Positions 9,873 to 33,750 of a stretch of DNA of 37,569 nucleotides are shown here, piece after piece (position 1 is the first letter of the stretch; the number at the start of each line of letters is the position of its first letter). Both the position numbers and the translations under genes were made by a program. Under the pieces are notes generated by a model. That model worked only from the letters and a program-made list of their open reading frames with translations, made no database searches and was not told the origin of the DNA. Source of the DNA: Bacteroidaceae bacterium (GTDB lineage Bacteria > Bacteroidota > Bacteroidia > Bacteroidales > Bacteroidaceae); NCBI GenBank assembly GCA_021443415.1, contig JABUTZ010000003.1:1-37569 (forward strand). The letters run 5' to 3'.

Positions 9873-9899
9873 AATTGTAGTTCTTGGAGTTAGCGGGGA

Positions 9900-9907: not shown

Positions 9908-9932
9908 GTGTAAAATTTAGAAATAATATCCG

Positions 9933-9940
9933 TATCTTTG
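9933..9940 (+). promoter_or_regulatory. -7 promoter element of cca
   Basis: TATCTTTG lies 25 nt upstream of the ATG at 9966 and matches TAnnTTTG. No strong -33 motif is visible at 19-21 nt. Confidence 0.55.
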
Positions 9941-9965
9941 TGCCTTCAAACTGATTTATTGACAA

Positions 9966-11396: not shown

Positions 11397-11404
11397 AACT
11401 TGTC

Positions 11405-13651: not shown

Positions 13652-13674
13652 AAATACGTTTTTGATTTCCGGTG

Positions 13675-13704
13675 CAAAGGAACGTAAAGCGTATTGCAGT
13701 ACAA
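13675..13704 (-). promoter_or_regulatory. Probable promoter of phosphate transporter
   Basis: On the minus strand TTG (13702-13704), a 19-nt spacer and TTCCTTTG (13675-13682) resemble the -33/-7 arrangement. The -7 element has TT in place of TA at its start, so this is a near match only. Confidence 0.4.
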
Positions 13705-13880
13705 TGTCATGTATATTACAAAAAGGTTACAAAAAGGTTCTTCGGCGAGGGAGAGGGAAGCCTCTCTCACAAAAAATGGGAGACTACATCCTATCGGACT
13801 CATACGTTTTTAATATGCTGATTTACAGCAATCAGTCAAAAGTAGGAAGAACCTTTTACGTCAACCGGCTAGCCGGTGTT

Positions 13881-13990
13881 TGACAGACACAAGTCTTTGA
13901 GATGACAGACATAAGTGTTCAAGCCGTCAGACACAAGTCTCTGTCACGTCAAATGCAAGTCTTTGACGTGTCAAACACAAGTGTCTGGCA
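13881..13990. repeat. Tandem array, five degenerate 22-bp units
   Basis: Units begin at 13881, 13903, 13925, 13947 and 13969, exactly 22 bp apart. The shared core is roughly CARAYRYAAGTSTYTG. Individual units form short inverted repeats, for example AGAC-ACAA-GTCT, GTCAAA-(8)-TTTGAC and ACAC-AA-GTGT, with mutations that often keep pairing. A 14-bp palindrome lies four bases before the first unit. No spacers of CRISPR type are present. Confidence 0.85.
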
Positions 13991-14133
13991 AAGCGGGTAT
14001 AATCGTTTGATTACCAGAATAGTTCAATCAGAGGGCGGAAGACGTAGGCGAGAGTGCCGTACTTCTTGTCCCGAACTCGTACATCGTTCCTCGGTGTCGG
14101 AGAAAAAGCCCGTTTTCAAGGGGGATAAGGAGG

Positions 14134-14156
14134 CATCCGGCATTGAATGCCGGATG
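14134..14156 (-). terminator. Terminator-like hairpin after ppk
   Basis: CATCCGGCAT and ATGCCGGATG form a perfect 10-bp stem with a 3-nt loop, 11 nt past the ppk stop. The minus-strand downstream bases are pyrimidine-rich without a long T-run. Confidence 0.5.
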
Positions 14157-14167
14157 GATGAAGAACC

Positions 14168-16237
14168 TTAACGATTGTTGCGCTGTTTCAGGTATTCGTA
14201 GAAAGTGTATTGCGAGCGCACCCGCTCCTTTTGCGGATGGGCAGATTTCCAGCAGTTGCGCAAATGGTCGTCTACGAAGCAGGCTTTCCGTTTGTCGGAC
14301 AGCTGGATGGAGAGCATGTCCGTCAGTTCCCTTTTCAAGTCCGGGTCCAGAATGGGAGTGACGGCCTCGATGCGGCGATAAAGGTTGCGGCGCATCCAGT
14401 CCGGCGAGCCGAGGAAGAGCTTCGGATTGCCGCCGTTGCCGAAATACCACACGCGCGCATGCTCCAAGAAAGTGTCTACGATACGTGTGATGCGGATATT
14501 ACGGCTATATGCTTGTCCGGGGATGAGGCAACAAATGCCGCGCACGATGAGGTCTATCTCCACACCGGCTTCAGAAGCCTCGTAGAGCCGGTCTATCATA
14601 GTGGGATCTTGCAGCGCATTCATCTTGAGGATGATTCTGCCTCGTTTTCCGTTTTTTGCCAACTCTATTTCGCGATCAATGAGGCGGTTCAGTTCCGGTA
14701 TCAGGTTGAAGCGTGCCACAAGCAACTGGTGGAATACCGTCTTCTCTTTGCTTTGCAGGGTGCGGAAAAGATTGTGAAGGTCGTTCACAATCACACGATT
14801 GCATGTGAACAGACCACTGTCGGCATAGAGGGTGGCGGTTTTCTCATTGAAGTTGCCCGTGCTGATGTAGGCGTAGCCGGGCAGCTTGTGTCCCTGCCTG
14901 TCGCGGCGCAGCACCAATGCCACTTTGGCGTGTACTTTCAGTTTGGGAATGCTGTATATGATGTTGATGCCGGCACTTTTCATCATTTCGGCCGTGGCAA
15001 GGTTGTTCTCTTCGTCGAAGCGCGCTTTCAGTTCAACGAACACCGTGACCTTTTTGCCGTTCTGGGCGGCGGCTATCAAGGTGTTGATGACGGTGGAGTT
15101 TTCTGCCACGCGATATTGGGTTGCCATGATTTCGCGCACGCTTGGGTCGTGCACGGCTTCGTATAAGAAATGTATGAAATGGTCGAAGGAATGGTAGGGG
15201 TAGTGTAGCAGCAAATCCTTCTTTTCCACATATCGGAAGATGGACTCGTGCTCGTCCAGGCAAGTCAGCTTCATGGGTTGAGGCTTCTTGACGGGGCGTA
15301 CCGATTGGTTGGGATTAGGCAGGTGGCGCAAGTCTTCCATATTGAGATGCTTGTCGCCGGGCACCAACTCGCGGCGGTCTATGCGGTAGGCATCTACCAG
15401 AAAGTTGAGGAAGTCCGCGGGCATGGCACGGTCGTAGACAAAGCGGCAGATGGCGCCTATTTTGCGCTTCTTTACCTTCGTCTTCACCTGCTCTATGATT
15501 TCCGAAGTGGTATTGACCGTTTCGTCTATCAGTATATCCGCATCCCGCGAAATCTTGATGCAATAGCTGCTCTCCACTTCATAGCCGGGGAAGATGGTGT
15601 CGATATTGGCCTTTATGATGTCTTCGATGAACATCAGGTAGTAATTTCTCCCCACTTTGGGCAGTTGGATGAAACGCGGCACTTTGCTGTACGGCAATTT
15701 CATGACGAAATATTGCGTATGGTCGGGCGAACCTGCCGGCAGGTTTTTGGAGTAAAGGCGCACAGCCAGATAGAGGCGGTTGTCGCGCAGGAAAGAGACG
15801 ACTTTGTCTTTACTTACCGGCACGGGTGACAGATAGGGGAATATCTCCTCATAGAAGAAGTTGCGTATGAACTCTTGGTGAAACGGTTCCACATTCCGGC
15901 TCTGATAGAAGATGATGTGGTGTTTCTTCAGGGCGGGCAGAATCTGCCGTTCGTAGATGCGGATGCGGTCTTCCAGTTGGCGGTTCACCTCATCATTGAT
16001 CTCTGCCACCAATTCGATGGCCGACTGCACCGACTCTTCGTCATTCTGCGTCACTCCGCTGGCTATGGCTTTGTGGTCGGCCACCCGTATTTTATAGAAT
16101 TCTTCCAGATTGGAGGAGTATATGGAAATAAAGTTGATGCGTTCATACAAAGGCAGTGTATCGTCTTCGGCCTCCAACAGCACGCGATAGTTGAAAGACA
16201 GCCAACTGATGTCACGCTTGAAGTATCTGTTCTCCAT
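14168..16237 (-). CDS. ppk1: Polyphosphate kinase 1
   Basis: This enzyme of 689 residues reversibly polymerises the gamma-phosphate of ATP into polyphosphate at the inner membrane or in the cytosol. The chosen ATG at 16237 gives MENRYFKRDISWLSFNYRVL, the standard opening of the N domain; an upstream in-frame Met adds 25 unlikely residues. The middle shows FYKIRVADHKA. The phospholipase-D-like catalytic half contains the active histidine in LKVHAKVALVLRR, the loop STGNFNEKTATLYAD, and the second histidine in TFLEHARVWYFGN. The length is that of E. coli Ppk (688). It is divergent from the small phosphoesterase, with interlocking promoters, and about 0.5 kb from the phosphate transporter on the same strand. 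Confidence 0.95.
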   Translation of the reverse strand: MENRYFKRDISWLSFNYRVLLEAEDDTLPLYERINFISIYSSNLEEFYKIRVADHKAIASGVTQNDEESVQSAIELVAEINDEVNRQLEDRIRIYERQILPALKKHHIIFYQSRNVEPFHQEFIRNFFYEEIFPYLSPVPVSKDKVVSFLRDNRLYLAVRLYSKNLPAGSPDHTQYFVMKLPYSKVPRFIQLPKVGRNYYLMFIEDIIKANIDTIFPGYEVESSYCIKISRDADILIDETVNTTSEIIEQVKTKVKKRKIGAICRFVYDRAMPADFLNFLVDAYRIDRRELVPGDKHLNMEDLRHLPNPNQSVRPVKKPQPMKLTCLDEHESIFRYVEKKDLLLHYPYHSFDHFIHFLYEAVHDPSVREIMATQYRVAENSTVINTLIAAAQNGKKVTVFVELKARFDEENNLATAEMMKSAGINIIYSIPKLKVHAKVALVLRRDRQGHKLPGYAYISTGNFNEKTATLYADSGLFTCNRVIVNDLHNLFRTLQSKEKTVFHQLLVARFNLIPELNRLIDREIELAKNGKRGRIILKMNALQDPTMIDRLYEASEAGVEIDLIVRGICCLIPGQAYSRNIRITRIVDTFLEHARVWYFGNGGNPKLFLGSPDWMRRNLYRRIEAVTPILDPDLKRELTDMLSIQLSDKRKACFVDDHLRNCWKSAHPQKERVRSQYTFYEYLKQRNNR

Positions 16238-16309
16238 AAGATTTCGGTTTAAGCAGGCAAGATTCAAAACGGGCACTGAAATAAATCGGGCTCTTGCTCT
16301 TATTTTGTC

Positions 16310-16340
16310 CAAATATAATTACCTTTGTTTAATAAACAAA
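16310..16340 (-). promoter_or_regulatory. Promoter of ppk1
   Basis: On the minus strand TTTG (16337-16340), a 19-nt spacer and TATATTTG (16310-16317) give a full match to the Bacteroides -33/-7 layout. It overlaps the opposite-facing promoter of the phosphoesterase gene. Confidence 0.7.
16320..16327 (+). promoter_or_regulatory. -7 promoter element of phosphoesterase gene
   Basis: TACCTTTG lies 19 nt upstream of the ATG at 16347. It lies inside the spacer of the ppk1 promoter, so simultaneous use of the two promoters should interfere. Confidence 0.5.
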
Positions 16341-16346
16341 AGAAAG

Positions 16347-16838
16347 ATGACAAAAATTGGTTTATTATCGGATACGCATGCCTATTGGGACGAGAAGTAT
16401 CTGCACTATTTCGAGCCGTGCGACGAGATATGGCATGCCGGAGACATCGGTTCGCTCGAAGTGGCGCAGAGGCTGGCCGCTTTCCGCCCGTTCCGTGCCG
16501 TGTATGGCAATATCGACGGGCAGGAAATCCGTCGGTTTTATCCGCAGACGTTGCGCTTCACGATAGACGGGGCGGAGGTGTTGATGAAGCACATCGGCGG
16601 TTATCCCGGCAACTACGACCCTTCCGTCAAAGGTTCTCTTTTGGTGCATCCGCCCAAACTTTTCATCAGCGGACATTCACATATCCTGAAGGTGAAGTAC
16701 GACAAAACATTGGACATGCTGCACATCAATCCCGGAGCGGCAGGCATCTCAGGCTTCCATAAAGTGCGCACGTTGGTGCGCTTCGTTGTGGACAAGGGCA
16801 CATTCAAAGACCTTGAGGTCATAGAGTTGGCAGGCTGA
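16347..16838 (+). CDS. Small metallophosphoesterase (YfcE/MJ0936-like)
   Basis: This 163-residue calcineurin-like phosphodiesterase has a dinuclear metal site. Motifs in order are SDTHAYW (residues 8-14), WHAGDIGS (about 35), YGNID (about 55), MKHIGGYPG (about 80) and SGHSHI (about 105), covering all metal ligands expected in the YfcE group. The ATG at 16347 places the first motif at the very N-terminus, as in the family; longer in-frame readings start inside ppk1 antisense sequence. It is monocistronic. The substrate of this family is not settled in general, so a link to polyphosphate is only suggested by position. Confidence 0.9.
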   Translation: MTKIGLLSDTHAYWDEKYLHYFEPCDEIWHAGDIGSLEVAQRLAAFRPFRAVYGNIDGQEIRRFYPQTLRFTIDGAEVLMKHIGGYPGNYDPSVKGSLLVHPPKLFISGHSHILKVKYDKTLDMLHINPGAAGISGFHKVRTLVRFVVDKGTFKDLEVIELAG

Positions 16839-16917
16839 ACGGCTGTCCGGAATCATTCGTCGCTGTTTCTGCCGAAAAAATCAGCCTGCAATATTTTTTT
16901 ATACATCCGGTTTGCAT

Positions 16918-16925
16918 TATATTTG
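16918..16925 (+). promoter_or_regulatory. -7 promoter element of rmlA-rmlB
   Basis: TATATTTG lies 89 nt upstream of the rmlA ATG and is the only TAnnTTTG match in the gap. The leader of about 80 nt holds no obvious hairpin. Confidence 0.5.
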
Positions 16926-17014
16926 CAACCTGAATAGCAAGTAGAGCCGTGGGGCATCGTCCTCCTTCTTATTTTATTCTCCGTTTGATGTATCACCGAA
17001 AAAAGAACTGAAAT

Positions 17015-17887
17015 ATGAAAGGAATCATTCTTGCAGGTGGCAGCGCCACTCGTCTCTATCCCTTGTCAAAGGCTATCTCCAAGCAGATAATGCCCGTCTA
17101 CGACAAACCCATGATATACTATCCGCTCTCTACGTTGATGTTGGCGGGCATACGCGAAGTGCTGATTATTTCTACTCCGCGTGATTTACCCATGTTCCGT
17201 GAGTTGCTTGGAACCGGCGAAGAGCTGGGTATGTCTTTCTCTTATAAAATACAGGAAAAACCCAACGGGCTGGCACAGGCTTTCGTGCTGGGAGCAGAGT
17301 TCCTGAATGGCGGGCCGGGCTGCCTCATTCTGGGCGACAACATGTTCTACGGGCAAGGCTTCTCTGCCATGCTGAAGCGTGCCGCCTCCATTGATAAGGG
17401 GGCTTGTATCTTCGGCTATTATGTGAAAGACCCGCGTGCCTATGGCGTGGTGGAGTTCGATGACGAGGGGAAAGCCATTTCTTTAGAAGAAAAGCCGGCA
17501 CAGCCCAAAAGCAACTATGCCGTTCCGGGCCTTTATTTCTATGATTCTACCGTGACGGCCAAAGCGGCTTCCTTGAAACCTTCCGCCCGTGGAGAGTATG
17601 AGATAACCGACCTCAACCGTCTGTATTTAGACGAGGGCACGCTGAAGGTGGAGCTCTTCGGCCGTGGCTTTGCTTGGCTCGATACGGGCAACTGCGACAG
17701 CCTGCTCGAAGCAAGCAACTTTGTGGCTACCATACAGAATCGCCAAGGCTTCCGTGTGAGTTGCATCGAGGAAATCGCATGGCGCAAAGGCTGGATAGAC
17801 GTAGACCAACTGTATCGCCTCGGCGAACAGCTTGGAAAAACAGAGTATGGCAACTATCTGATGGAACTTGCCGACTCGCGGAGATAA
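17015..17887 (+). CDS. rmlA: Glucose-1-phosphate thymidylyltransferase
   Basis: This 290-residue cytosolic enzyme makes dTDP-glucose from dTTP and glucose-1-phosphate, the first step to dTDP-rhamnose and related sugars. The nucleotide-binding N-terminus reads [20 protein letters not shown], with the family's G-x-G-T-R-L pattern and catalytic lysine region. [29 protein letters not shown] (metal-binding Asp), GVVEFD and [20 protein letters not shown] follow in the usual order. The length is standard. It is the first gene of an rmlA-rmlB pair, with 64 nt to rmlB. Confidence 0.95.
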
Positions 17888-17951
17888 GAAACGGGAGGAT
17901 AGACCGAACTCTAAAGCTCATAATTTATAATTCAAAAAAACTCATAATTAC

Positions 17952-19091
17952 ATGAAGACGTATCTTGTGACCGGTGCGGCCGGTTTTATCGGAGCTAATT
18001 ATATCAAATATATACTGGCGAAACATGACGACATCAAGGTGGTGGTATTGGATGCCTTGACCTATGCCGGAAACTTGGGAACCATTGCCGACGACATTGA
18101 TGACGTGCGTTGTTTCTTCGCGAAGGGCGATATTTGCGACCGCGCATTGGTGGATGACTTGTTTGCCAAGTATAAATTCGACTATGTGGTGAACTTTGCC
18201 GCCGAGAGCCATGTGGATCGCAGCATCGAAAATCCGCAGCTTTTCCTGATGACGAATATTCTGGGCACGCAGAACTTGCTGGATGCTGCCCGCCGTGCCT
18301 GGGTGACGGGCAAGGACGAGACCGGCTATCCTACTTGGCGCAAAGGTGTGCGCTACCATCAGGTATCGACGGATGAGGTGTACGGCTCGTTGGGTGCCGA
18401 AGGGTACTTCACGGAGCAGACACCGCTATGTCCCCACAGTCCGTACAGCGCATCCAAGACGAGCGCCGATATGGTGGTGATGGCTTATCACGACACTTAC
18501 AAGATGCCGGTGACCATTACCCGCTGTTCCAACAACTACGGGCCCTATCACTTCCCGGAGAAGCTGATTCCGTTGATTATCAAGAACATCTTGGAAGGAA
18601 AGAATCTTCCCGTCTATGGTGATGGCAGCAACGTGCGCGACTGGTTGTATGTAGAAGACCATTGCAAGGCCATCGACCTTGTGGTACGCAAAGGCGTGGA
18701 TGGCGAAGTCTACAATGTGGGCGGCCATAACGAAAAGACCAACTTGGAGATTGTGAAACTGACCGTCTCTACCATTCGCCGCTTGATGGAAGAAGAGCCC
18801 AAGTATCGCGAAGTTTTGAAGAAGAAAGACAAAGATGCCGATGGGCGGATTGATATCAGTTGGATTAATGAAAACCTGATAACGTTTGTCAAAGACCGTT
18901 TGGGGCATGACCAGCGTTATGCCATCGACCCGACGAAGATTAGCAACGCTCTTGGCTGGTATCCCGAAACGAAGTTCGAAGCAGGCATTGTGAAGACCAT
19001 CAAGTGGTATCTGAACCATCAGGACTGGGTGGAGGAAGTGACCAGTGGCGACTATCAGAAGTATTACGAACGGATGTACGGAAAGAGGTAG
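17952..19091 (+). CDS. rmlB: dTDP-glucose 4,6-dehydratase
   Basis: This 379-residue extended short-chain dehydrogenase converts dTDP-glucose to dTDP-4-keto-6-deoxyglucose using bound NAD. The Rossmann motif TGAAGFIGANY starts at residue 7. The catalytic region has STDEVYGSLG and the YxxxK pair in SPYSASKTSAD. The C-terminal substrate part includes RCSNNYGPYHFPEKLIPL and YGDGSNVRDWLYVEDHCKAI. It is slightly longer than E. coli RmlB (361), as is common in Bacteroidales. No rmlC or rmlD follows, so the final sugar is not defined by this locus. A terminator hairpin lies 34 nt downstream. Confidence 0.95.
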   Translation: MKTYLVTGAAGFIGANYIKYILAKHDDIKVVVLDALTYAGNLGTIADDIDDVRCFFAKGDICDRALVDDLFAKYKFDYVVNFAAESHVDRSIENPQLFLMTNILGTQNLLDAARRAWVTGKDETGYPTWRKGVRYHQVSTDEVYGSLGAEGYFTEQTPLCPHSPYSASKTSADMVVMAYHDTYKMPVTITRCSNNYGPYHFPEKLIPLIIKNILEGKNLPVYGDGSNVRDWLYVEDHCKAIDLVVRKGVDGEVYNVGGHNEKTNLEIVKLTVSTIRRLMEEEPKYREVLKKKDKDADGRIDISWINENLITFVKDRLGHDQRYAIDPTKISNALGWYPETKFEAGIVKTIKWYLNHQDWVEEVTSGDYQKYYERMYGKR

Positions 19092-19124
19092 TATTCTTTC
19101 TTGGTCGGATTGAAAAAAAGAAGT

Positions 19125-19161
19125 GTGCCGATGTCTCTACGGAGACGCCGGCACTTTCTTT
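19125..19161 (+). terminator. Intrinsic terminator of rmlA-rmlB
   Basis: A 13-bp stem with one mismatch and one G-T pair (19125-19137 with 19142-19154, loop TACG) is followed by TTTCTTT. It lies 34 nt after the rmlB stop. Confidence 0.7.
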
Positions 19162-19179
19162 GTGGAGACACTGTCTCTT

Positions 19180-19363
19180 TCACTATGGTGACGTTGCTTC
19201 CCTCACTATGATGACGTTGCCTCCCTCACTATGATGACGTTGCCTCCCTCGCTATGGTGACGCTGCCTCCCTCACTGCGGTGACGTCGTTTCCCTCACTG
19301 CGGTGGCGTTGCTTGTCTCACTGCGATGACGTTGCCGGCCTCACTGCGGTGATATTGCCGGCC
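19180..19363. repeat. Tandem array, eight 23-bp units
   Basis: Units start at 19180, 19203, 19226, 19249, 19272, 19295, 19318 and 19341, all 23 bp apart, with a partial ninth. Each begins with the core TCACTRYGRTGACGTT or a close variant. TCAC-TATG-GTGA and TCAC-TGCG-GTGA are 4-bp inverted repeats with a 4-nt centre. The array fills the gap between the convergent rmlB and menA genes, beyond the rmlB terminator. Units 2 and 3 are identical, whereas the outer ones have drifted. Confidence 0.9.
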
Positions 19364-19390
19364 TCGTCATAAGCTCTGTTTTGCCAAGCC

Positions 19391-20338
19391 CTACATCAGA
19401 ATGGCTGCACTGAGCAGCAGTCCCATAAGCAGCATATTGCGTGAGGTTTCGCCTAATATGCTGTTTAGTTGTTTACCGCTTTGTATTTGGCACATCCGTT
19501 GCCACGTGCGTACATGGAAGAAGAGATAGAGCAACGGCATAAGCAGTGCCGCAGGGTTGACGGGCAGGGCAGGGCTGCCTGTGACGGGGTTTATGAGGTC
19601 GTTGTCTATGCCGAACCGGAAAGAGAGCAGAGTGGCGGCAATGCCTAACCCCAAGTAGGCATAGCGTCCGAAAGGTTCGCCCAGACGTACTATCAGTGTA
19701 CGTTTGCCGCTAAGGACATCTTGTTCGCGGTCGCGATAATTATTTACTACCAACAAAGTGTCTATCACCAATCCGCAAACGAGCGAGGCCACAATCACAT
19801 CCATGGTTATTTTGTAAGCCTGTACATAATAAGTTCCTCCCACGGGAATAAAACCGAAGAAAACCAAAACCAGCAAGTCTCCCCATCCGTGATAGGAAAG
19901 TATCGTGGTGTAAAGAAAGGCAAACAGGACACAAAGCGTTCCCAATCCTATCAGCTCCCATCCATCGTATGGCAGTTGCCCCCGGCAGGTGTACAACAAT
20001 CCGCCGCCGGCAAGGCACGAGAGGAGAACGGCAAGCCCGATGCCTTTCTTCATGGCTTCGGGTGTAATCCAGCCTTGTGAGCAGGCACGTTCCGGACCGA
20101 GACGGTCTTCACGGTCTGTTCCTTTCAGATAGTCGTAGAGGTCGTTGATGAAATTGGCGGCCACCTGCATGCCACAGGCAAAGAGCAGGCACAGCAGGGC
20201 GGGCAGGGGAGTGAATACTTCGTCGGCAAGAGCCAGCGAAGTACCTGTCAGTACGGGGATGAAGGCACCCGTCAATGTTTTGGGGCGGGCGGCGAGCATC
20301 CAAGCATGGATTGAGTTGGTTCTTACGGTTTCTATCAT
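19391..20338 (-). CDS. menA: 1,4-dihydroxy-2-naphthoate polyprenyltransferase
   Basis: This 315-residue integral-membrane UbiA-family enzyme attaches the polyprenyl tail to DHNA in menaquinone synthesis. It starts with RPKTLTGAFIPVLTGT as in MenA. The first Asp-rich motif is NFINDLYDYLKGTDREDR (about residues 63-80), and the second is NYRDREQDVLSGKRTL (about 198-213), together binding Mg-diphosphate. About eight or nine transmembrane helices are visible. Its ATG overlaps the stop of the upstream 996-residue gene (ATGA, 20335-20338), so the two are translationally coupled. The MenA label rests on overall resemblance; other UbiA members are possible but less likely. Confidence 0.92.
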   Translation of the reverse strand: MIETVRTNSIHAWMLAARPKTLTGAFIPVLTGTSLALADEVFTPLPALLCLLFACGMQVAANFINDLYDYLKGTDREDRLGPERACSQGWITPEAMKKGIGLAVLLSCLAGGGLLYTCRGQLPYDGWELIGLGTLCVLFAFLYTTILSYHGWGDLLVLVFFGFIPVGGTYYVQAYKITMDVIVASLVCGLVIDTLLVVNNYRDREQDVLSGKRTLIVRLGEPFGRYAYLGLGIAATLLSFRFGIDNDLINPVTGSPALPVNPAALLMPLLYLFFHVRTWQRMCQIQSGKQLNSILGETSRNMLLMGLLLSAAILM

Positions 20339-23325
20339 TGTTTTTCTATTATGGGGAAAAGCGGTTGTTCCGGCATCAGCACTACTCCTTGTTTTTTCTT
20401 TCCGTCCATCTTTACGATGAGTGGATGCTCAAAACGCACGTGGCGCAGATACTTGGTTTCATATACGGCAGGCTGTGCGTTGAGGAAGTCCTGATTGTAC
20501 ACTCCGTCGTTCATGAAGGCATTGATGGTGAAGTAGCCTACGCCGAAGGAAGTCAGGTTCTGGAAGAAGTGGGTTCCTTGGCTCGGGTCTATGCGGTAAT
20601 TGGTCAGTCCTGCCTCCACTATGATGCGGGCTGCGCTGATGTGCGGCCACTTCACCGGAATGCCCAGCCAAGTGTCGCTGCTTCCCCATCGTCCGGGTCC
20701 CACAAGGACATAATTCTTGCCTTCGTCCAGAAACTTCTGGTTCAGCTTTTCTATCTCCCATGCAATCTCCTGATTATGCGAGGCGCTGTAATCATCCGTC
20801 TTTACGTAGACCACATCCTGCATCTCGTTCATGATGCCATGTCCCAGCGAATTGTTGGAGCGAAGCAATATCCGGTCGTCGGAGATGAGCGAGAGGTCTT
20901 CGTCCAGCATCTCCTTGCTGTCTACAATGGGTCGGATTTGCAGCAGGTAGAAAGTTCCGGATTTATCTTTCTCGCGGTTCAATGTAGTGGCGAACTCTAT
21001 TTCTACGGGGCGGCGCATTTCCTGCTGCCCGTATTTCAAGACCAATTGCAGGATGCGTGCCAACGGAAATACATCGTGCTGGAGGATATTGGCAAAGGTG
21101 ATGACTTTGCGTCCGCCGGGATAGAGACCATCACGGATAATCTGGTCGTATGGGTCGTAGGTAGAAGCGATATACTTCAGTGCCCCGTCCTTTTCCGCTT
21201 CCTTTACGTGCAGTTTCAGCAGGTTGAAGCCGTCGTCTATGGAGAAGTCATGGCCGGCATTGCGCAGGTCGAGGGCATAAAAGCGGGTCTGTGTCTCTTT
21301 CAGGGCAATCTCCATCTCGCTGGTTTGCAGCACCTGGGTGGGGTGGTAGGGAGAGAAACGCAGTGTCATGCCTCCGTCCACGATGTACTTGCCCAAGCCG
21401 AGAGCCAGATTTACAGTACCTTCTTCGGCCTTTTCATCTCCGATGGGATAGTAATTGAGCGAGCGTGCCACACCGGACATGGACGGATAGTAACGGTCAC
21501 CGTAATAGTTGCCCGCCACTTCTTGCAGGATGACTGCCATTTTCTCTTGGTCGATGACGTTGCTCGTTGCTTGCATGTATGCTTTTGAGTCGTGGAAATA
21601 GACAGAAGCATACACGCCTTTGATGGCGTCGCCCAGCATGCGCAACATTTCATACTTATCGTCCAGATAGGGAATCATGTAGGTGTTGTAGATACCGGCA
21701 AACGGTTGGTAGTGGGAGTCCTCCAGCAGTGACGACGAGCGGATGGCTATGGGCGACTTCACCACGTCGAAGAACGTGAAGAAGTCTTCCACCAACCGGT
21801 CGGGCAGTTTGGCTTTCAGGAAGTAGCGCAAGATGGTGTCGTCGTCCGCATCCGACAGAGCCACCTGATATAAATTGTTGGTATCCATGAACTCGTCGAA
21901 CACATCCGTGCAGAGCACAACGGTCTTCGGGATGGCCACATTGGCATTCTCAAACTCTTCGAATTCGGGATGATGCTTCACCATATTGTCTATGAATGCC
22001 AGACCGCGCCCTTTGCCTCCCAGCGACCCGTCGCCTATGCGGGCAAAATTGGAGTAGCGGTCGAAGCGGTCGCGCTTGAAGACGGCCACCACTCCCTGAT
22101 TCTTCATCTTGCGATATTTCACGATGGCCTCGAAGATGATTTTGCGGTGTGCATCCACATCCTGCAAACTGTTCCATGTGATGGGTTTCAGAAACTCGGC
22201 CACAGGAAACATGGCACGCGAATAGAGCCATCGGCTGACATGGTTGCGGCTGATATGATAAAGGAACGATTCTGCCGGTACGGCAAAAAGAATGTTCTGC
22301 AATTCCTTGAGGTTCTTTACGCGGGCAATCTCTTCCAGCGTATCGGGATTGCGGAAGATGAAATCGCCGAAACCGAAGTTGTCCGATACGATGCGGCGCA
22401 AGTCCACATCCATCTTTTTGGAATTCTTGTCGATGAAAGAGGCGTCGTACTTGGCTGCATAGGCGGCATTGTCCGATTCGGAAGACTGTATGATAAGCGG
22501 GACAAACGGATCTTCCTTGCGTATGGCGGCACAGAGCTTTATTCCCGCCAGTTCATCCTTCTCGCCACGCTCCGTACGTGGGAAGCGCACGTCGGTGATG
22601 ACGCCTAATATATTGTTTCTGTATTTCTCGTAAATGCCTGTGGCTTCTTCGTAGGTACGCGCAAGCACTATTTTGGGGCGTCCCCTCATGCGTAATGTGC
22701 GTTGATGGGCATTCAGTGCTTCCGTAGAGAACTCTTGGCTCTGTTTCAGAATAAACTTATACAGGTTAGGGAGGATGGAGGAGTAGAAGCGGATGCCGTC
22801 TTCCACCAGCAGGATAAGCTGCACGCCCACTTCATTGACGTCATGCTCCAGATTCATCTTGTCCTCTATCAGCTTGATGATGCTCAGCAGCAGATAGGTG
22901 TCGCCCAGCCAGCAGAACACGTAGTCGAACAGTGTCAGGTCCTCATGCTCCATCCGCTCCGCGATTCCGTGGCTGAAAGGCGTCAGCACCACAATCGGCA
23001 CGTCGGGCGTCGCGCGCTTCACATCACGCGCTATGTCGAAAGCGTCGCTCGAGTCGCTCGCCGGCATCGCGATCACAAGGTTGAACTTGAAACGCCTCAG
23101 GTGGTCATGAGCCTCCTCCAGTGTCGACACGACATGAAACCGCGGAGGATACGTCAGGCCCAGCTGGGTGTATTCGTTGAACATCTTCTCGTCTATACGC
23201 CCGTCATCCTCCAGCATGAAGGCGTCGTAGGGGTTGGCGATAAGGAGTATGTTGAAGATGCGGTGCGTCATGAGTTCCACGAACGAGACGTCGCGCAGAT
23301 AGAGACGGTCGATGGCATTGTTCAT
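20335..23325 (-). CDS. Receiver-like plus PEP/pyruvate-binding domain protein
   Basis: This 996-residue cytosolic protein of a type common in Bacteroidales has an undefined role. Residues about 22-155 form a receiver-like fold in which the phospho-acceptor site is replaced (LVIAMPAS). Residues about 168-305 form a second receiver with its key residues present: acidic pocket VEDG, D245 in VITDVRFP, S281 and K300. A PPDK/PEP-synthase-type ATP-grasp nucleotide-binding region follows, with GDGSLGGKGRGLAFID (about 432-450), IAIRSSSLLEDS (about 520-535) and FAGIYNTY. It ends with GPGRWGSSDTWLGIPVKW (about 875). The phosphohistidine and PEP/pyruvate barrel domains of true PpsA are absent. It is translationally coupled to menA. 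Its first ~190 codons have a different base composition from the rest (see findings). Confidence 0.85.
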   Translation of the reverse strand: MNNAIDRLYLRDVSFVELMTHRIFNILLIANPYDAFMLEDDGRIDEKMFNEYTQLGLTYPPRFHVVSTLEEAHDHLRRFKFNLVIAMPASDSSDAFDIARDVKRATPDVPIVVLTPFSHGIAERMEHEDLTLFDYVFCWLGDTYLLLSIIKLIEDKMNLEHDVNEVGVQLILLVEDGIRFYSSILPNLYKFILKQSQEFSTEALNAHQRTLRMRGRPKIVLARTYEEATGIYEKYRNNILGVITDVRFPRTERGEKDELAGIKLCAAIRKEDPFVPLIIQSSESDNAAYAAKYDASFIDKNSKKMDVDLRRIVSDNFGFGDFIFRNPDTLEEIARVKNLKELQNILFAVPAESFLYHISRNHVSRWLYSRAMFPVAEFLKPITWNSLQDVDAHRKIIFEAIVKYRKMKNQGVVAVFKRDRFDRYSNFARIGDGSLGGKGRGLAFIDNMVKHHPEFEEFENANVAIPKTVVLCTDVFDEFMDTNNLYQVALSDADDDTILRYFLKAKLPDRLVEDFFTFFDVVKSPIAIRSSSLLEDSHYQPFAGIYNTYMIPYLDDKYEMLRMLGDAIKGVYASVYFHDSKAYMQATSNVIDQEKMAVILQEVAGNYYGDRYYPSMSGVARSLNYYPIGDEKAEEGTVNLALGLGKYIVDGGMTLRFSPYHPTQVLQTSEMEIALKETQTRFYALDLRNAGHDFSIDDGFNLLKLHVKEAEKDGALKYIASTYDPYDQIIRDGLYPGGRKVITFANILQHDVFPLARILQLVLKYGQQEMRRPVEIEFATTLNREKDKSGTFYLLQIRPIVDSKEMLDEDLSLISDDRILLRSNNSLGHGIMNEMQDVVYVKTDDYSASHNQEIAWEIEKLNQKFLDEGKNYVLVGPGRWGSSDTWLGIPVKWPHISAARIIVEAGLTNYRIDPSQGTHFFQNLTSFGVGYFTINAFMNDGVYNQDFLNAQPAVYETKYLRHVRFEHPLIVKMDGKKKQGVVLMPEQPLFPIIEKQ

Positions 23326-23359
23326 TGTTCGAATGGGATTTTGCGTGTGTTTGACACGG

Positions 23360-23391
23360 CAAAGTTACGTCTTTTTGCCTTTTCGTGCAAA
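23360..23391 (-). promoter_or_regulatory. Promoter of receiver/PEP-binding gene and menA
   Basis: On the minus strand TTTG (23388-23391), a 20-nt spacer and TAACTTTG (23360-23367) make a full -33/-7 match. The leader to the ATG at 23325 is about 30 nt. Confidence 0.7.
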
Positions 23392-23464
23392 AAAACGCAA
23401 AACAAAAGCTTGAGGCGGCACTTTCACGCGTCATCCGGGGCGAGGGGCAAAAAACGTAGGGGCG

Positions 23465-23472
23465 TAACTTTG
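23465..23472 (+). promoter_or_regulatory. -7 promoter element of HU-like pair
   Basis: TAACTTTG followed by CACC matches TAnnTTTG, 75 nt upstream of the first HU-like gene. It faces away from the minus-strand promoter at 23360-23391. Confidence 0.55.
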
Positions 23473-23547
23473 CACCGTCAAACAGAAAGACCGGTCCTGA
23501 CTGACACAAAGAAAAACATTTTTACTAACCCTAAAACACAAACAATC

Positions 23548-23943
23548 ATGCTTTACGTCAGAGTATCAAAACGCTACAACAAAATCAAGCACATCTACAT
23601 GTACGGAGCATCGCTCATCAGCGAGAGACAGGTGACAATGGACGAACTCGTGGAGCGAATCAACGCACGATGCACCGTCACCAAAAGTGACATCATGGCG
23701 GTGCTCGCCGCATTCCAGGAGCAGGCCATCTACGCCCTCCGAAACGCACAGGGAGTGTCGCTCGGCGAACTCGGCACACTCTACATCCGTGCAAATACAC
23801 GCACAATGGAAACCGCGGCGGACTTCACCATCAACGATGTCCTGGGGCTCCTCGTAGGCTTCCGCCCGAGACAGTCGTTCACAAGGAAACTACAGAAAGG
23901 ACAGGAGGGCATCTCGTTCAAGTGCGCCAAAATCCAAGACTGA
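23548..23943 (+). CDS. HU/IHF-like DNA-binding protein (first of pair)
   Basis: The protein has 131 residues from the ATG at 23548. A basic N-terminal stretch (MLYVRVSKRYNKIKHIYMYG) precedes an HU-type helical and beta-arm region: TMDELVERINARCTVTKSDI, then AVLAAFQEQAIYALRNAQGV and SLGELGTLYI, the last being the turn before the arm in HU relatives. It resembles the Bacteroidota HU-HIG proteins, which are longer than E. coli HU (90). A longer in-frame reading from 22702 crosses the opposite gene and is rejected. It probably bends or packages DNA. It forms a two-gene unit with the next gene, 40 nt apart, ended by a strong terminator. Confidence 0.8.
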   Translation: MLYVRVSKRYNKIKHIYMYGASLISERQVTMDELVERINARCTVTKSDIMAVLAAFQEQAIYALRNAQGVSLGELGTLYIRANTRTMETAADFTINDVLGLLVGFRPRQSFTRKLQKGQEGISFKCAKIQD

Positions 23944-23983
23944 AACCAGGTCAAACCGTTAAACCATCAAAAACCTTACAACT

Positions 23984-24376
23984 ATGATTAAAATCAAGAA
24001 GATCCAGAACAACAACCCTAAGACACCACAGTTCAATGGATGGAGTGGCAGAGTGATCAACAGCGACAGCCTCAGCCTCGACACCGTAGCAGGCCTCTGC
24101 AGTCTCAACAACACCGTCACAAGGGCAGACACCATCGCAGTGCTCGACGCACTCTTCGTGGAGTGCATACACGCACTCAAAAACGGCAACTCCGTGTCTC
24201 TCGGAGACCTCGGCTCACTACACCTCACGGTCTCGGGACCGCTCGCCGCAACGCTTGAGTCGTGGAACGTGAAGGACAACATCGAGAAAATCAATGTGCG
24301 ATACACACCGAGCCCCGCACTCAAACGGGCCGTGAGCCTCACGGCCGAGGGAGTGAATGTGAGGGTGGTGGACTGA
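23984..24376 (+). CDS. HU/IHF-like DNA-binding protein (second of pair)
   Basis: This 130-residue protein is a divergent paralogue of the preceding one: same length, same central pattern (VTRADTIAVLDALFVECIHA followed by GNSVSLGDLGSLHL) and a similar C-terminal half ending in a short basic-acidic tail. The N-terminus MIKIKKIQNNN is again basic and is followed by a Trp-containing insert (QFNGWSG) missing from the first copy. Sequence identity between the two is clearly low outside the core, so they may heterodimerise or have separate targets. Family membership is by pattern only. Location in the cell is expected to be nucleoid-associated. Confidence 0.78.
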   Translation: MIKIKKIQNNNPKTPQFNGWSGRVINSDSLSLDTVAGLCSLNNTVTRADTIAVLDALFVECIHALKNGNSVSLGDLGSLHLTVSGPLAATLESWNVKDNIEKINVRYTPSPALKRAVSLTAEGVNVRVVD

Positions 24377-24665: not shown

Positions 24666-24842
24666 ATGGCACTCGAAATAAGACCTATCCCCATACTCGA
24701 GGGAGATGCCGCAGAACGATTCATAAAGCAAGCAGAGGAAAACGCAAGAAACCCCAAAAAGTCACAACTGCACTTACTCACTGCAGAACAATTCGAAAGC
24801 ATCAAACTAAAACGGAAAATTCACAACTTACATGAGTCATAA
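24666..24842 (+). CDS. Small 58-residue protein, possible antitoxin partner of GNAT
   Basis: This ORF is too short for ordinary ORF cut-offs. It begins MALEIRPIPILEGDAAERFI and ends in a charged, helix-prone tail (FESIKLKRKIHNLHES). It is placed right behind a -7 element and overlaps the GNAT gene by 11 nt, so the two are translationally coupled. The order (small protein first, GNAT second) matches GNAT-type toxin-antitoxin loci such as TacAT/AtaRT, but the sequence does not look like their DUF1778 ribbon-helix-helix antitoxins. It resembles small proteins preceding GNAT genes in other Bacteroidales, from memory. Base and codon composition match its neighbours. The antitoxin role is inference. 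Confidence 0.7.
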   Translation: MALEIRPIPILEGDAAERFIKQAEENARNPKKSQLHLLTAEQFESIKLKRKIHNLHES

Positions 24843-25422
24843 CATCTACGACTGTGACATGTATATGGTAGAGTCGGAACAAGACTTGGCCAATTTTTCG
24901 TGTGGCAGCAAAGACCTCGACGAGTTCTTTGCGCTCGACGCCTTTTTCTACGACAGACAAATGCTCGGTAAAACTTATTACTTCGAAACAAAAGACACCT
25001 CTCAGGTTATAGCGGCATTCACCGTCGCAAACGACAGCATCAAGGCATCACTCATCTCCAAGTCCACACGAAACAGGCTCAACCGCAAAATACCAAACAC
25101 AAAGCGAACACGCAGTTACCCGGCAGTACTTATCGGACGACTTGGAGTGTCGGGCAACGAAAAAGGCACAGGCGTAGGAAGCCAGGTCATAGACTTCATA
25201 AAGAAATGGTTCTCACAACACAACAACAAAAGCGGATGTAGGTATGTCGTGGTGGACGCATACAACCTGCCACAAGTACTTCAATTCTACGAAAAAAACG
25301 AATTCCAATTCCTCTATGACAATGAACAAGAAGAAAAAGACACATTCGGACTAAAACGCGATGAAAAACTCAATTCAAGAATGATGTACTTCGACCTGAT
25401 CAACTATTCGGATATTAACTGA
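24832..25422 (+). CDS. GNAT-family N-acetyltransferase
   Basis: This 196-residue cytosolic acyl-CoA-dependent acetyltransferase shows motif A as VLIGRLGVSGNEKGTGVGSQ (about residues 99-118), giving the acetyl-CoA pyrophosphate loop K-G-T-G-V-G. Motif B is at about residues 144-157 (LPQVLQFYEKNEFQFL) with the tyrosine expected to act as general acid. The N-terminal half (SGSKDLDEFF-like acidic helix, DRQMLGKTYYF) resembles the TacT/AtaT branch, which acetylates aminoacyl-tRNA, rather than small RimI-type proteins, but this is a by-eye judgement. It overlaps the preceding 58-residue ORF by 11 nt. No terminator is visible after it. The alternative is an ordinary metabolic or protein acetyltransferase. 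Confidence 0.85.
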   Translation: MSHNIYDCDMYMVESEQDLANFSCGSKDLDEFFALDAFFYDRQMLGKTYYFETKDTSQVIAAFTVANDSIKASLISKSTRNRLNRKIPNTKRTRSYPAVLIGRLGVSGNEKGTGVGSQVIDFIKKWFSQHNNKSGCRYVVVDAYNLPQVLQFYEKNEFQFLYDNEQEEKDTFGLKRDEKLNSRMMYFDLINYSDIN

Positions 25423-25477
25423 AATACAACAGCCTCATTTTTAACCACACCCCACCAACTCTTACAAAAACTTTTCG

Positions 25478-25485
25478 TAACTTTG
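25478..25485 (+). promoter_or_regulatory. -7 promoter element of Ig-like protein gene
   Basis: TAACTTTG followed by CAGC lies 140 nt upstream of the ATG at 25626. The long A/C-rich leader between them has no clear hairpin. Confidence 0.5.
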
Positions 25486-25625
25486 CAGCGTCTTTCAGAC
25501 AACACACGAAAGAACAACACACAATACCTTATGCCACACCACTATAATCACACATAGCGGTGACAGGCATACCTTATTATATATACAAGGGCAAACACAA
25601 ACCAACATAACACAAAACAACTCAC

Positions 25626-27728
25626 ATGAAAAAACTCTTACTCACAATCCTCACCACAATCTGCACCGTGGCGGGATTCGCACAAGACATCGCCTACAAG
25701 ACGCTCACCTTCTCGGCTGAGACAAACAGCAAGGCAGTCAGCAGCTACACAAACACATGGTCCGGCACTGTCGGTGGCTTCACATGGGACATCGTCAACT
25801 TCAACAACAACAACAACGGCTGGAGCTACGTCAGGTGCGGCAGCAAGAACGACGCCATCGTGTCATACATCACCACAAGCACTGCCATCGACAAAGCAAT
25901 CACAAAAGTGGAGCTGACTATCGACGCAGTTACCGCCGCTAATGTAAACTCTGTCAAACTTCTCACTTCCACAACAAGCGATTTCACAACACCCAAAGAG
26001 ACTGTTGACATAACAATAGCAAAAGGAACTCAGACAGCCACGCTGACCAACCCTGCCGAAAACCTCTACTACCAGCTGGTATTCGACTGTGCGCAAAAAA
26101 GCAACGGCAGCCTCCAACTCTCCAAGGTCGTTTACTACACCGCCGGCGGCGGAGAGACAAAGACCCCCACAAGCCTCACATTCAGCACCACCGAAGTAAC
26201 ATACGACATGGCAAGCGGAGAGTCTTTCACCGCCCCCACACTCACCACCGCCCCAGCTGACCTCACCGGCGTCACATACACCAGCAGCGACCCCACAGTG
26301 GCAACCGTAAATGAGACAACCGGCGCGGTCACAATACTTGCCAAAGGCACAACCATAATCACCGCCACATTCGCCGAGACAGCCACACACTACGGCTCCA
26401 ACGCCACATACACACTCAAAGTCAAAGACACAACCGTGGCACCCGGATACTTCAACTTCGTCGATTGGGCCTTCCCGGGAGCCGAAGACTGGACTACCTC
26501 ATACGCAGCACGCACAGCAGCATACACCGAGGCAACCGTCACATTCGCAAGCGCCAACAAGCAGAGCGCGACAGCTGTCATCGCCGACTGCCCCGTCACA
26601 AAGAATGACCCTGTCACCGTTGTCCTCACAAATACTGCTAACGACATAGAGTCGTTCAGTGCCAACTTCGAACAGTGGGGCACAAAAGAAAAGACCGTGA
26701 CTCTCTACACCAGCATCGACGGCGTCAACTTCACCGCCACCGACATCACAACCTCCACCTTCGCCTTCACAACCACAACCCTCGAAAAAGGCGTCAAGGC
26801 AATTCGCTTCGTGTTCTCAAAAGACGACAACCAAATCGGCATCGCAGACATCACAATCAAGGAGGTGAAGGGCCAGGGCAAAATACCCACAAACCTCACA
26901 TTCAGCGAGACAAGCGTCACCTACAACATGGCGGGAGAAGACCCGTTCGTCGCTCCAACACTCACCACCGACCCCGAGGGCCTCGCCGGCATCACATACA
27001 CCAGCAGCGACCCCACAGTGGCAACCGTCAATGAGGACGGCGACGTGTCAATCCTCGCGGAGGGAACAACCACCATCACAGCCACATTCGCCGAAAACGA
27101 TACCTACCTCGGCTCAACAGCATCCTACACACTCACCGTGACAAAGTCAAAAGGCACCATAACAGCCGAACTCAACTTCGTGGGCTGGACCTTCCCAGGA
27201 GCAGACTCGGGATGGAGCGCATACAAAGAACAAACCGTCACATTCCCCGAGGCGGTGGTATGGTTCAAGAGTGTCTCAAAACAAGGCGAAGGAATGTCAA
27301 TCACCGACTGCCCGGTCACAAGGGGCGGTGATATCACAGTGACCTTAAACGGCTCCGGCACAAGCGAAATACTCTCATTCAGCGCAGAGTTCGAGCAGTG
27401 GAGTGACAAAAAACAAACCGTCACTCTCTATACAAGCACTGACGGCGAAAACTACACCGCAACCACAACGACCACCAGCAACTTCTCATTCGGCAAGACT
27501 ACGCTCGACAGCGGAGTGAAAGCCATAATGTTCAAATTCTCTTCTACATCCAACCAAATCGGCCTCAGGAGCGTAACACTCGAAATACTCAGCGACACAA
27601 CCCCCGTCAACGGCGTTGAGGCGGCCCCCACCACCGGCAACCGCATCTACAACCTCGCCGGGCAGCGCGTCAGCGCCACCAAGAGCGGACTCTACATCCT
27701 CAACGGCAAGAAGGTCATCATCAAGTAA
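25626..27728 (+). CDS. Secreted Ig-like repeat protein with C-terminal tail
   Basis: This 700-residue exported protein has a Sec signal peptide (residues 1-19, MKKLLLTILTTICTVAGFAQ). Its modules alternate: an N-terminal beta-domain (about 22-175); an Ig-like BIG2 domain (about 178-268, TYTSSDPTVATVNETTGAVT); a beta-sandwich-like module (about 275-420, FNFVDWAFPGAEDW); a second BIG2 domain (about 423-512); and a second copy of the beta-sandwich module (about 517-662, LNFVGWTFPGADSGW). The end (NRIYNLAGQRV, then SGLYILNGKKVIIK) resembles the C-terminal sorting-type tails of Prevotella/Bacteroidales cell-surface proteins. It is probably adhesive or carbohydrate-binding; the ligand is unknown. 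It is monocistronic between its own promoter and a strong terminator, just upstream of the capsule locus. Confidence 0.82.
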   Translation: MKKLLLTILTTICTVAGFAQDIAYKTLTFSAETNSKAVSSYTNTWSGTVGGFTWDIVNFNNNNNGWSYVRCGSKNDAIVSYITTSTAIDKAITKVELTIDAVTAANVNSVKLLTSTTSDFTTPKETVDITIAKGTQTATLTNPAENLYYQLVFDCAQKSNGSLQLSKVVYYTAGGGETKTPTSLTFSTTEVTYDMASGESFTAPTLTTAPADLTGVTYTSSDPTVATVNETTGAVTILAKGTTIITATFAETATHYGSNATYTLKVKDTTVAPGYFNFVDWAFPGAEDWTTSYAARTAAYTEATVTFASANKQSATAVIADCPVTKNDPVTVVLTNTANDIESFSANFEQWGTKEKTVTLYTSIDGVNFTATDITTSTFAFTTTTLEKGVKAIRFVFSKDDNQIGIADITIKEVKGQGKIPTNLTFSETSVTYNMAGEDPFVAPTLTTDPEGLAGITYTSSDPTVATVNEDGDVSILAEGTTTITATFAENDTYLGSTASYTLTVTKSKGTITAELNFVGWTFPGADSGWSAYKEQTVTFPEAVVWFKSVSKQGEGMSITDCPVTRGGDITVTLNGSGTSEILSFSAEFEQWSDKKQTVTLYTSTDGENYTATTTTTSNFSFGKTTLDSGVKAIMFKFSSTSNQIGLRSVTLEILSDTTPVNGVEAAPTTGNRIYNLAGQRVSATKSGLYILNGKKVIIK

Positions 27729-27751
27729 ACCTCCACACACCGCATAACGAA

Positions 27752-27799
27752 GGCGGCATCGCAACTCCAAACAAGGAGACAGCGATGCCGCCCTTTTTT
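27752..27799 (+). terminator. Intrinsic terminator of Ig-like gene
   Basis: GGCGGCATCGC and GCGATGCCGCC form a perfect 11-bp stem with a 19-nt loop, followed by C and six T. It starts 23 nt after the stop codon. Confidence 0.85.
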
Positions 27800-27943
27800 G
27801 CGCCCGCACAAGCCGTGAAACATCCACCACCAACAATAAAATCTAAACGCAACCAAACACTCAATTATTTGAAACAACACACACAAAAAGAGTTAACAAA
27901 TAAAAAAACAAAAGTTTCTTGGGAAACATTAACAACTTTTCCG

Positions 27944-27951
27944 TAACTTTG
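27944..27951 (+). promoter_or_regulatory. -7 promoter element of capsule operon
   Basis: TAACTTTG followed by CACAC lies 63 nt upstream of the first possible start of the antiterminator gene. A TTG at 27919-27921 is 22 nt upstream, slightly beyond the usual -33 spacing. No inverted repeats or invertase gene that would mark a phase-variable promoter were found. Confidence 0.5.
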
Positions 27952-28014
27952 CACACTTGCATAGTGCCAAAACAACAACGGCACAAGCACACACAGGCAC
28001 ACCTCTGAGAAAAC

Positions 28015-28662
28015 ATGCAAACCTGTATCTCAGACACAAAGACGCAAACTCAAGCGCCAAAACAACACAACTGCATGGGCATCAACACTTTATGCCACCA
28101 TGCAGGACTCAATGCCATGCCCATCACGGAGGAACAGACCAAACAATGGTACGTCCTGCGCGACCTCAAACGACCCAACGCACTACTGCCGGCATACAAA
28201 ATGCTCGGCAACCTCAACATCGAGGTCTTCACACCCATGCGCGAACAACTCTCGCGAAAGCGTGAAACATTGCAGCGCACCATGCAGCCCGTCCTCCGCG
28301 ACCTGCTCTTCGCACACACCACACGCAGCGCGCTCGACGGCATCATCCACAACACACCCACCCTCCAATACCGCTTCCTCAAGGGGCACCGGCAGAAACC
28401 CATGACTGTACCCGAACGCGAGATGACAGACTTCATCACCGCCGTCGCCTGCAGCCACACCACACACTTCCTGATGCCCGACGAAATCAACCCCGCAATG
28501 TACGGCAGGCGGGTGCGCATCATAGGAGGGACACTCGACGGACAAGAGGGCATACTCAAAACCGTGCGAGGCTCACGCCGACGGCACCTCCTCGTACAGC
28601 TCGAGGGAATACTCGCCGCCGACATCGAAATCACAGACTGCCAATACACCATCATCGAATAA
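28015..28662 (+). CDS. UpxY-like NusG-family transcription antiterminator
   Basis: This protein of up to 215 residues probably binds RNA polymerase early in the capsule operon and prevents premature termination, as UpxY proteins do in Bacteroides. The NGN domain begins KQWYVLRDLKRPNALLPAYK (about residue 43) and passes through EVFTPMRE; the KOW motif GRRVRIIGGTLDGQEGIL is at about 163-180. The start is uncertain: ATG codons at 28015, 28075 and 28117 are in frame, and the last puts MPITEEQTKQWYVLR close to the usual N-terminus, so the first 34 residues may be leader RNA instead. It is the first gene of the locus, 36 nt before the export lipoprotein. No upxZ partner follows. Confidence 0.82.
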   Translation: MQTCISDTKTQTQAPKQHNCMGINTLCHHAGLNAMPITEEQTKQWYVLRDLKRPNALLPAYKMLGNLNIEVFTPMREQLSRKRETLQRTMQPVLRDLLFAHTTRSALDGIIHNTPTLQYRFLKGHRQKPMTVPEREMTDFITAVACSHTTHFLMPDEINPAMYGRRVRIIGGTLDGQEGILKTVRGSRRRHLLVQLEGILAADIEITDCQYTIIE

Positions 28663-28698
28663 CACACAACACCAACACCCGAAAACAATACAAACACA

Positions 28699-29511
28699 AT
28701 GAATATCAAACGACTGATCCCAACAATCGCCATAGCAGCAATGCTCGCAGCCTGCGGCACACCAAAGGACATAGCCTACTTCCAGGACTCCGACCAGTAC
28801 AACGACATCGTCGTCAAAGCGCACGAAATCACAGTCAAGCGAGGAGACAAACTCTCCATCATCATCAACAGCAAAGACCCAGCGCTCGCCAGCATGTTCA
28901 ACATGCCCATCGTCACATACCGAGTAGGCTCCACACAGCAGGCGTCAACACTCGGCAGCTCCAGCCAGCAAATGGCCCTCTACTGCGTTGACAGCAACGG
29001 AGACATCGACTTCCCCGTCATAGGCAAAATAAAAGTCGTGGACAAAAGCCGAGAGGAGATAGCAAACATCGTCAAGGAAAGGCTCGTCAGCGAGGAACTC
29101 ATCAAAGACCCCGTCGTGACCGTCGAGTTCGAAAACCTCTACTTCTCCGTACTCGGAGAGGTAAAAAACCCCGGACGATTCGACATCAAGCACGACCGAG
29201 TCACACTCCTCGACGCCATCAGCATGGCCGGAGACCTCACCATCAACGGCATGCGACACAACGTCACCGTACTCCGCGAGGAGGGAGACCACCACAAACT
29301 CTACAAGGTGGACCTCACATCAGCCAACGACCTCTACAACTCGCCCGTCTTCTACCTGCAGCAGAAAGACATCGTGTACGCCGAACCCAACGACGCGCGG
29401 AAGCGACAGGCCACCGTCAACGGAAACAACGTACGCAGCACATCATTCTGGATATCAGTCGCATCGCTACTCACCAGCGTCGCAATTCTCGTCACAAACG
29501 CAGTCAAATAA
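28699..29511 (+). CDS. Wza-like polysaccharide export lipoprotein
   Basis: This 270-residue outer-membrane polysaccharide exporter has a lipoprotein signal MNIKRLIPTIAIAAMLAAC (lipobox LAAC). The poly-export domain follows (about residues 30-130: EITVKRGDKLSIIINSKDP onward, with VDSNGDIDFPVIGKIKV), then an SLBB domain (about 150-230: FSVLGEVKNPGRFDI, VTLLDAISMAGDLTINGMR). A hydrophobic segment near the C-terminus (FWISVASLLTSVAILVTNAV) is of the kind seen in Bacteroidota exporters, which are shorter than E. coli Wza (379). It is three bases upstream of the kinase gene, so they form one translational unit. Confidence 0.92.
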   Translation: MNIKRLIPTIAIAAMLAACGTPKDIAYFQDSDQYNDIVVKAHEITVKRGDKLSIIINSKDPALASMFNMPIVTYRVGSTQQASTLGSSSQQMALYCVDSNGDIDFPVIGKIKVVDKSREEIANIVKERLVSEELIKDPVVTVEFENLYFSVLGEVKNPGRFDIKHDRVTLLDAISMAGDLTINGMRHNVTVLREEGDHHKLYKVDLTSANDLYNSPVFYLQQKDIVYAEPNDARKRQATVNGNNVRSTSFWISVASLLTSVAILVTNAVK

Positions 29512-29514
29512 ACC

Positions 29515-31926: not shown

Positions 31927-32639
31927 TGTGGCCCTTCACACGAACACAGCGACTCGACCGGTGCGGCATACTCCAGGGAGCCACCGACTGGCACTCACAC
32001 ATCCTCCCCGGCGTTGACGACGGGGTCAAGACGATGGAGGAGTCACTCGAAATCCTCGACATCTACGAGGCGCTCGGCATACACAAGGTATGGCTCACAC
32101 CGCACATCATGGAGGACATACCAAACACCACCTCCCACCTCCGCCAACGCTTCGAAGAGCTGCGCGCCGCCTACACCGGACCCATCACCCTCCGCCTCAG
32201 CGCCGAGAACATGATCGACGCGCTCTTTCAGCGACGCCTCGACTCAGGCGACCTCCTACCCTACGGAGACCAGGCCGACGCACTCCTCGTCGAGACATCC
32301 TACTTCACACCACCCATGAACCTCTACGGCACACTCGAGCAGATCAAGGCACACGGATACCACCCCGTGCTCGCACACCCCGAGCGATACGTCTATATGA
32401 CCGACGACGACCACCGACGGCTCCGGAAACTCGGCGTACGATTCCAACTCAACATCGGCTCACTCCTCGGAACCTACGGACCCAACGTCCAGAAACTCGC
32501 ACGCGAACTGCTCCGCGACTCACAATACGACTGCGCCGGCTCCGACATACACACCATCCGATGCCTGCAACGGCACCGGCACGCACCACTCCCATACAAA
32601 GACATCGTAGCACTCAACAAAATCCCGCAAAACCAATAA
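31926..32639 (+). CDS. PHP-type tyrosine phosphatase (CpsB/CapC-like)
   Basis: This 237-residue cytosolic metal-dependent phosphatase is expected to dephosphorylate the Wzc-like kinase. PHP motifs in order are DWHSHILPGVDDG (about residues 21-33), WLTPHIMED, AENMID, LAHPERYVYM (about 155) and GSDIHTI (about 208), covering the three-metal site. The ATG at 31926 overlaps the kinase stop in a TGATG junction; a GTG one codon earlier (31923) is possible and adds one residue. This PHP class is typical of Firmicutes CpsB and of Bacteroidota, in contrast to the low-molecular-weight Wzb of Proteobacteria. It is tightly coupled to the kinase gene. Confidence 0.92.
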   Translation: MWPFTRTQRLDRCGILQGATDWHSHILPGVDDGVKTMEESLEILDIYEALGIHKVWLTPHIMEDIPNTTSHLRQRFEELRAAYTGPITLRLSAENMIDALFQRRLDSGDLLPYGDQADALLVETSYFTPPMNLYGTLEQIKAHGYHPVLAHPERYVYMTDDDHRRLRKLGVRFQLNIGSLLGTYGPNVQKLARELLRDSQYDCAGSDIHTIRCLQRHRHAPLPYKDIVALNKIPQNQ

Positions 32640-32657
32640 CACAAACATCATATATAT

Positions 32658-33749: not shown

Positions 33750-33750
33750 A

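Follow-up and report, generated by a model that had tools for sequence, protein, structure and literature searches.

A Bacteroidaceae metagenome contig that probably joins two species inside a conserved PPDK_N gene

The contig analysed here (the window, 37,569 nucleotides in full) consists of about 22.8 kb of essentially Bacteroides heparinolyticus followed by about 14.7 kb of a different, strongly strand-skewed member of the Bacteroidaceae. The two parts meet inside a single gene (20335–23325, minus strand). For a compositional boundary in this gene, the original prediction had offered two explanations, homologous recombination between different Bacteroidales and an assembly chimera; our results support this pair of readings, and the evidence favours the latter. 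Judged from the sequence, an assembly chimera between species is very probably the best explanation of the contig. Its features are collected in Table 1.

Table 1. Features of the window, from left to right
Feature	Position	Strand	Basis and content
B. heparinolyticus-like chromosome	1..22345	.	Colinear DNA match, 200-bp identity profile to 22.4 kb, Pfam; AcrB-type efflux operon, ABC-F, PcnB, PHO4 transporter, PPK, presumed RmlA, RmlB and MenA (named from sequence), PPDK_N codons ~328–996
PPDK_N gene, codons ~162–327	22345..22840	-	Bacteroides; not clearly nearer any other sampled species than B. heparinolyticus
Junction zone, conserved stretch IIKLIEDKMNLEHDV	22837..22884	-	Cumulative affinity, exact-match scan, codon alignment
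PPDK_N gene, codons 1–165	22831..23325	-	Lineage sister to the bin's C18 locus; fourfold-site strand skew
Intergenic region with divergent TAACTTTG promoter-like motifs	23326..23546	.	Visible raw skew begins here
HU-HIG DNA-binding protein gene pair	23547..24376	+	Pfam PF18291; ATG starts near 23.55 kb and at 23984
Right-parent block	24832..34962	+	Pfam, fourfold sites, homologues; plus strand strongly A/C-rich; weak GNAT match, Big_2 protein, NusG-like (UpxY-type) regulator, polysaccharide export protein, Wzz/AAA kinase, CpsB phosphatase, and two ORFs presumed to be nucleotide-sugar enzymes

The left part of the window is the chromosome of a known species. Positions 1–11487 are colinear with contig C3 of B. 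heparinolyticus DSM 23917 at 97% DNA identity, the colinearity continues at 99% over 14086–15000, and high identity to this strain (~97%) extends up to 22.4 kb, with the exception of a patch at 18.8–19.4 kb. That patch (18800–19400), which covers the end of the presumed RmlB gene and the gap behind it, is 80–92% identical to B. heparinolyticus. At 11488–14085, the window has 2,598 bases against ~253 in DSM 23917, and the ~2.3 kb of extra DNA holds most of a PHO4-family transporter gene (11405–13651). Overall, the left 22.3 kb is colinear with DSM 23917 at ~97%, and the differences are this extra DNA (11.5–14.1 kb) and the other DNA that begins at 22.84 kb and continues rightwards. At the join, the native continuation of the left parent is not that of the window: upstream of the gene, B. 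heparinolyticus has an ORF that we take, from its sequence, to encode glutamate dehydrogenase, and the HU pair has no match in DSM 23917.

The gene in which the two parts meet encodes a PPDK_N domain (PF01326, 141 bits against a gathering score of 27); a response-regulator domain (PF00072) scored 25.0 bits, below the Pfam gathering score of 30.2. The whole protein is 92% identical to that of B. heparinolyticus DSM 23917, a figure that hides an internal break. We profiled DNA identity along the gene in 33-codon bins and also in 50-bp and per-codon profiles. In the 33-codon bins, codons 1–132 are only 52–69% identical to B. heparinolyticus and codons ~298–990 are 89–98% identical to it. The copy on C18, a contig of the same metagenome bin, is 77–82% identical over codons 1–132, dropping to 50–77% past codon 165. 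Codons ~166–297 are of Bacteroides type, with DNA identities of 78–83% in the 33-codon bins, and codons ~162–327 are ~75–91% identical to B. heparinolyticus in the finer profiles. Protein identity over codons 1–165, 166–297 and 298–996 is 87.7%, 60.0% and 64.6% to C18, and 68.5%, 94.7% and 98.6% to the best Bacteroides-group sequence. Trees of the separate pieces group the window with C18 for codons 1–165 (support 0.995) and with B. heparinolyticus for the middle codons (0.767) and for codons 298–996 (1.0). For codons 1–165, the next-best match after C18 (88% of amino acids) reaches 71% among 399 genomes of the family. The two ends of the gene, as had been anticipated, have different closest relatives: C18 for codons 1–165 and B. 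heparinolyticus for codons 298–996. The segment at 22345–22840 is possibly a third source or an intragenus patch, and ordinary recombination between Bacteroides could also account for it; the gene may come from three sources, codons ~166–300 being the candidate third.

Composition changes along with affinity. A plus strand rich in C and A and poor in G and T had been described for the right side, in genes and non-coding DNA alike, and the windowed skews agree. GC and AT skew are weak up to ~23.3 kb (about +0.06 and about −0.06, respectively) and strong beyond ~23.3–23.4 kb (about −0.2 to −0.3 and about +0.3 to +0.4); with the division set at 23.33 kb, the right side has a GC skew of −0.20 and an AT skew of +0.31. 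The non-coding DNA at 24377–24831 (GC skew −0.29, AT skew +0.30) and at 25423–25625 (−0.54 and +0.34) shows the same. The raw shift becomes obvious only from ~23.4 kb because the gene at 20335–23325 runs on the minus strand. Fourfold sites, in contrast, place the turn within this gene: coding-strand frequencies of A/C/G/T are.04/.24/.58/.14 in codons 1–160 and.16/.42/.31/.11 after them (chi-square p = 3e-5), and the best change-point, after codon 174, was equalled in 0 of 500 permutations. The skew is therefore present already in the first codons of the minus-strand gene, as originally noticed. Applied to the orthologues of B. heparinolyticus and of bin contig C18, the same test detected no significant change. 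Both GC and AT skew change sign, as they would at a replication origin or terminus at ~23.3 kb, where a single genome switches between leading and lagging strand. However, the strength of the skew is very unequal on the two sides (about 0.05 versus 0.2–0.3), and the different relatives of the two ends of one gene contradict this reading, to which we give practically no credence. The skew change is a difference between the parents in mutational strand bias, not a replication origin or terminus.

The affinity switches at codons ~148–163, with the cumulative affinity peaking at codon 148 (window position 22,881). The change, expected near residues 180–193, does fall inside the gene, although the affinity break is slightly closer to the gene start; the reading frame is intact across it, in line with expectation. 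An exact 36-base word (22847–22882) is common to the window and Bacteroides fluxus, and exact words of 29–31 bases at the join are common to the window and several other Bacteroides. C18, which carries a sister copy of the right parent's gene and the only such copy found, differs from the window at several positions within 22,847–22,882. The exact junction 57-mer is absent from IMG/VR contigs, which says little because this collection is viral.

On the right side, the window aligns from 23359 with bin contig C35 (69%), which is the only match of the intergenic region and carries the sole homologous HU-HIG pair in the genomes searched, and the polysaccharide genes have homologues in bin contig C42 and in relatives of the genus (67–77%). 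For the gene start and the HU pair, no right-hand parent closer than C18 and C35 was found in 139 genomes of the genus and 399 of the family. A plasmid as the source of the right side was rejected: the sole match was a weak one to a kinase. Neither tRNAs nor Rfam families were found in the window. Fourfold sites over 24832–34962 have A of.21–.41, C of.32–.58, G of.09–.18 and T of.01–.10. The plus-strand A/C bias is extreme over 22831–34962 (T 1–4% and G 9–18% at fourfold sites in most genes), and a bias of such strength and length was not seen in the bin or in the other loci scanned. An ORF of 481 aa within the skewed region (35083–36528), presumably an AlbA-type DNA-binding regulator as judged by eye, has no skew (fourfold T.18, G.24), as for a recent arrival, and neither has the gap before it. 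The skew might reflect nothing but the coding orientation of a plus-strand operon, since the right-hand genes lie mostly on the plus strand and skew in the bin does follow gene orientation. Yet genes of either orientation tested, including minus-strand codons 1–165, give an A/C-rich plus strand, and so do three of the four non-coding gaps tested; pure orientation is contradicted for most of the region, and we consider it exceedingly improbable. Only one short minus-strand piece (71–90 fourfold sites) speaks for strand rather than orientation in the bias of the right parent, which makes this a lead and not a result. As the general bacterial pattern, a passage in PMC5291525 gives leading strands rich in G/T and lagging strands rich in A/C.

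The bin was sampled by taking 20 kb from the start of each of its other contigs, or all of a contig where it was shorter. Most sampled contigs have 55–61% G+C, compared with 50–52% in the window contig, and most are without strand-level bias, their skew tracking gene orientation. The bin also has its own copies of the PPDK_N gene, on C18, and of menA, on C66 (48%). Given this base composition and these copies, the window contig is foreign to the bin, and it lies outside the main species of the bin on both sides: B. heparinolyticus on the left and a sister lineage on the right. The low-G+C bin contig C20 was considered as a further piece of B. heparinolyticus and rejected, as it is not that species. 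Contig C35 starts in a repeat that is also present upstream of the gene in C18, and C18 then enters a long stretch of N. Since the start of C35 and the break in C18 fall in this shared repeat, the order gene–repeat–HU in the genome of the bin is likely, albeit not proven. Tandem and dispersed repeats occur at or near these contig breaks (L004 2940–3190; L005 1–60), namely GGGAGTTATC units and GCGCCGCAGGCGCATAACTCC, the latter, common to C18 and C35, being found on 14 sampled contigs.

How the two parts came together can be proposed as follows. Reads of a B. heparinolyticus strain and reads of a Bacteroidaceae sister to the main species of the bin would have been joined in a conserved gene carried by both parents, encoding the PPDK_N protein of ~996 aa. 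A short identical word at codons ~148–163 was probably common to both, and at this shared k-mer node the assembler would have come in along one genome and gone out along the other; the frame would be kept because the parental genes are orthologous. In a de Bruijn graph, sequence that two species have in common, with two incoming and two outgoing paths, forms a chimeric node, and chimeric contigs were frequent in benchmark assemblies (PMC8171044). The window resembles such contigs in that its non-overlapping parts match different species, the join lies in conserved sequence and the contig is foreign to its metagenome bin. It differs in that the gene is possibly three-sourced and in that the window was judged from sequence, not from reads.

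Homologous exchange in cells would explain the same join differently: a B. heparinolyticus-like strain would have gained the HU pair and the capsule locus by a crossover inside the conserved gene. The intact frame and a junction in a conserved, near-identical stretch fit such a recombination mosaic of a core gene, recombination in cells also prefers short identical stretches, and the 80–92% patch in the left block suggests that exchange within the genus does occur. However, the contig has a single boundary, beyond which the B. heparinolyticus order does not resume over the remaining 14.7 kb (to 37.5 kb), and the entire flank differs in gene order. On the right, the genes follow the order found in the bin's own relatives, which is what a mixing of reads from co-sampled species would produce. 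Four things make us regard exchange as unlikely: there is only one boundary, the flank of 14.7 kb is unrelated, the bin mixes species and a third source is possible. A live B. heparinolyticus-like cell whose chromosome was fused to the capsule-locus region of another Bacteroidaceae through core-gene recombination is likewise unlikely. A chimera is favoured because the left is the chromosome of a known species whereas the right comes from a different lineage, its genes ordered as in the bin's relatives, and because there is only one junction, with Bacteroides-shared exact words at it and a possible third source. The data establish the two affinities, where the join lies, the words it has in common with Bacteroides and the foreign nature of the contig in its bin. 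From these we infer that the join originated in assembly rather than in a cell, and most likely it is an artefact and not biology.

An in-frame chimera internal to a gene can thus sit in a contig of normal appearance within a bin that serves as species representative, here one with a low estimated contamination of 1.96%. Fourfold-site skew together with affinity profiles places such a join to within about 50–80 bases. The 996-aa fusion protein should not enter analyses as if it were a natural sequence. What remains as real is a Bacteroidaceae lineage, its genome absent from the sets searched, with a very strong strand bias.
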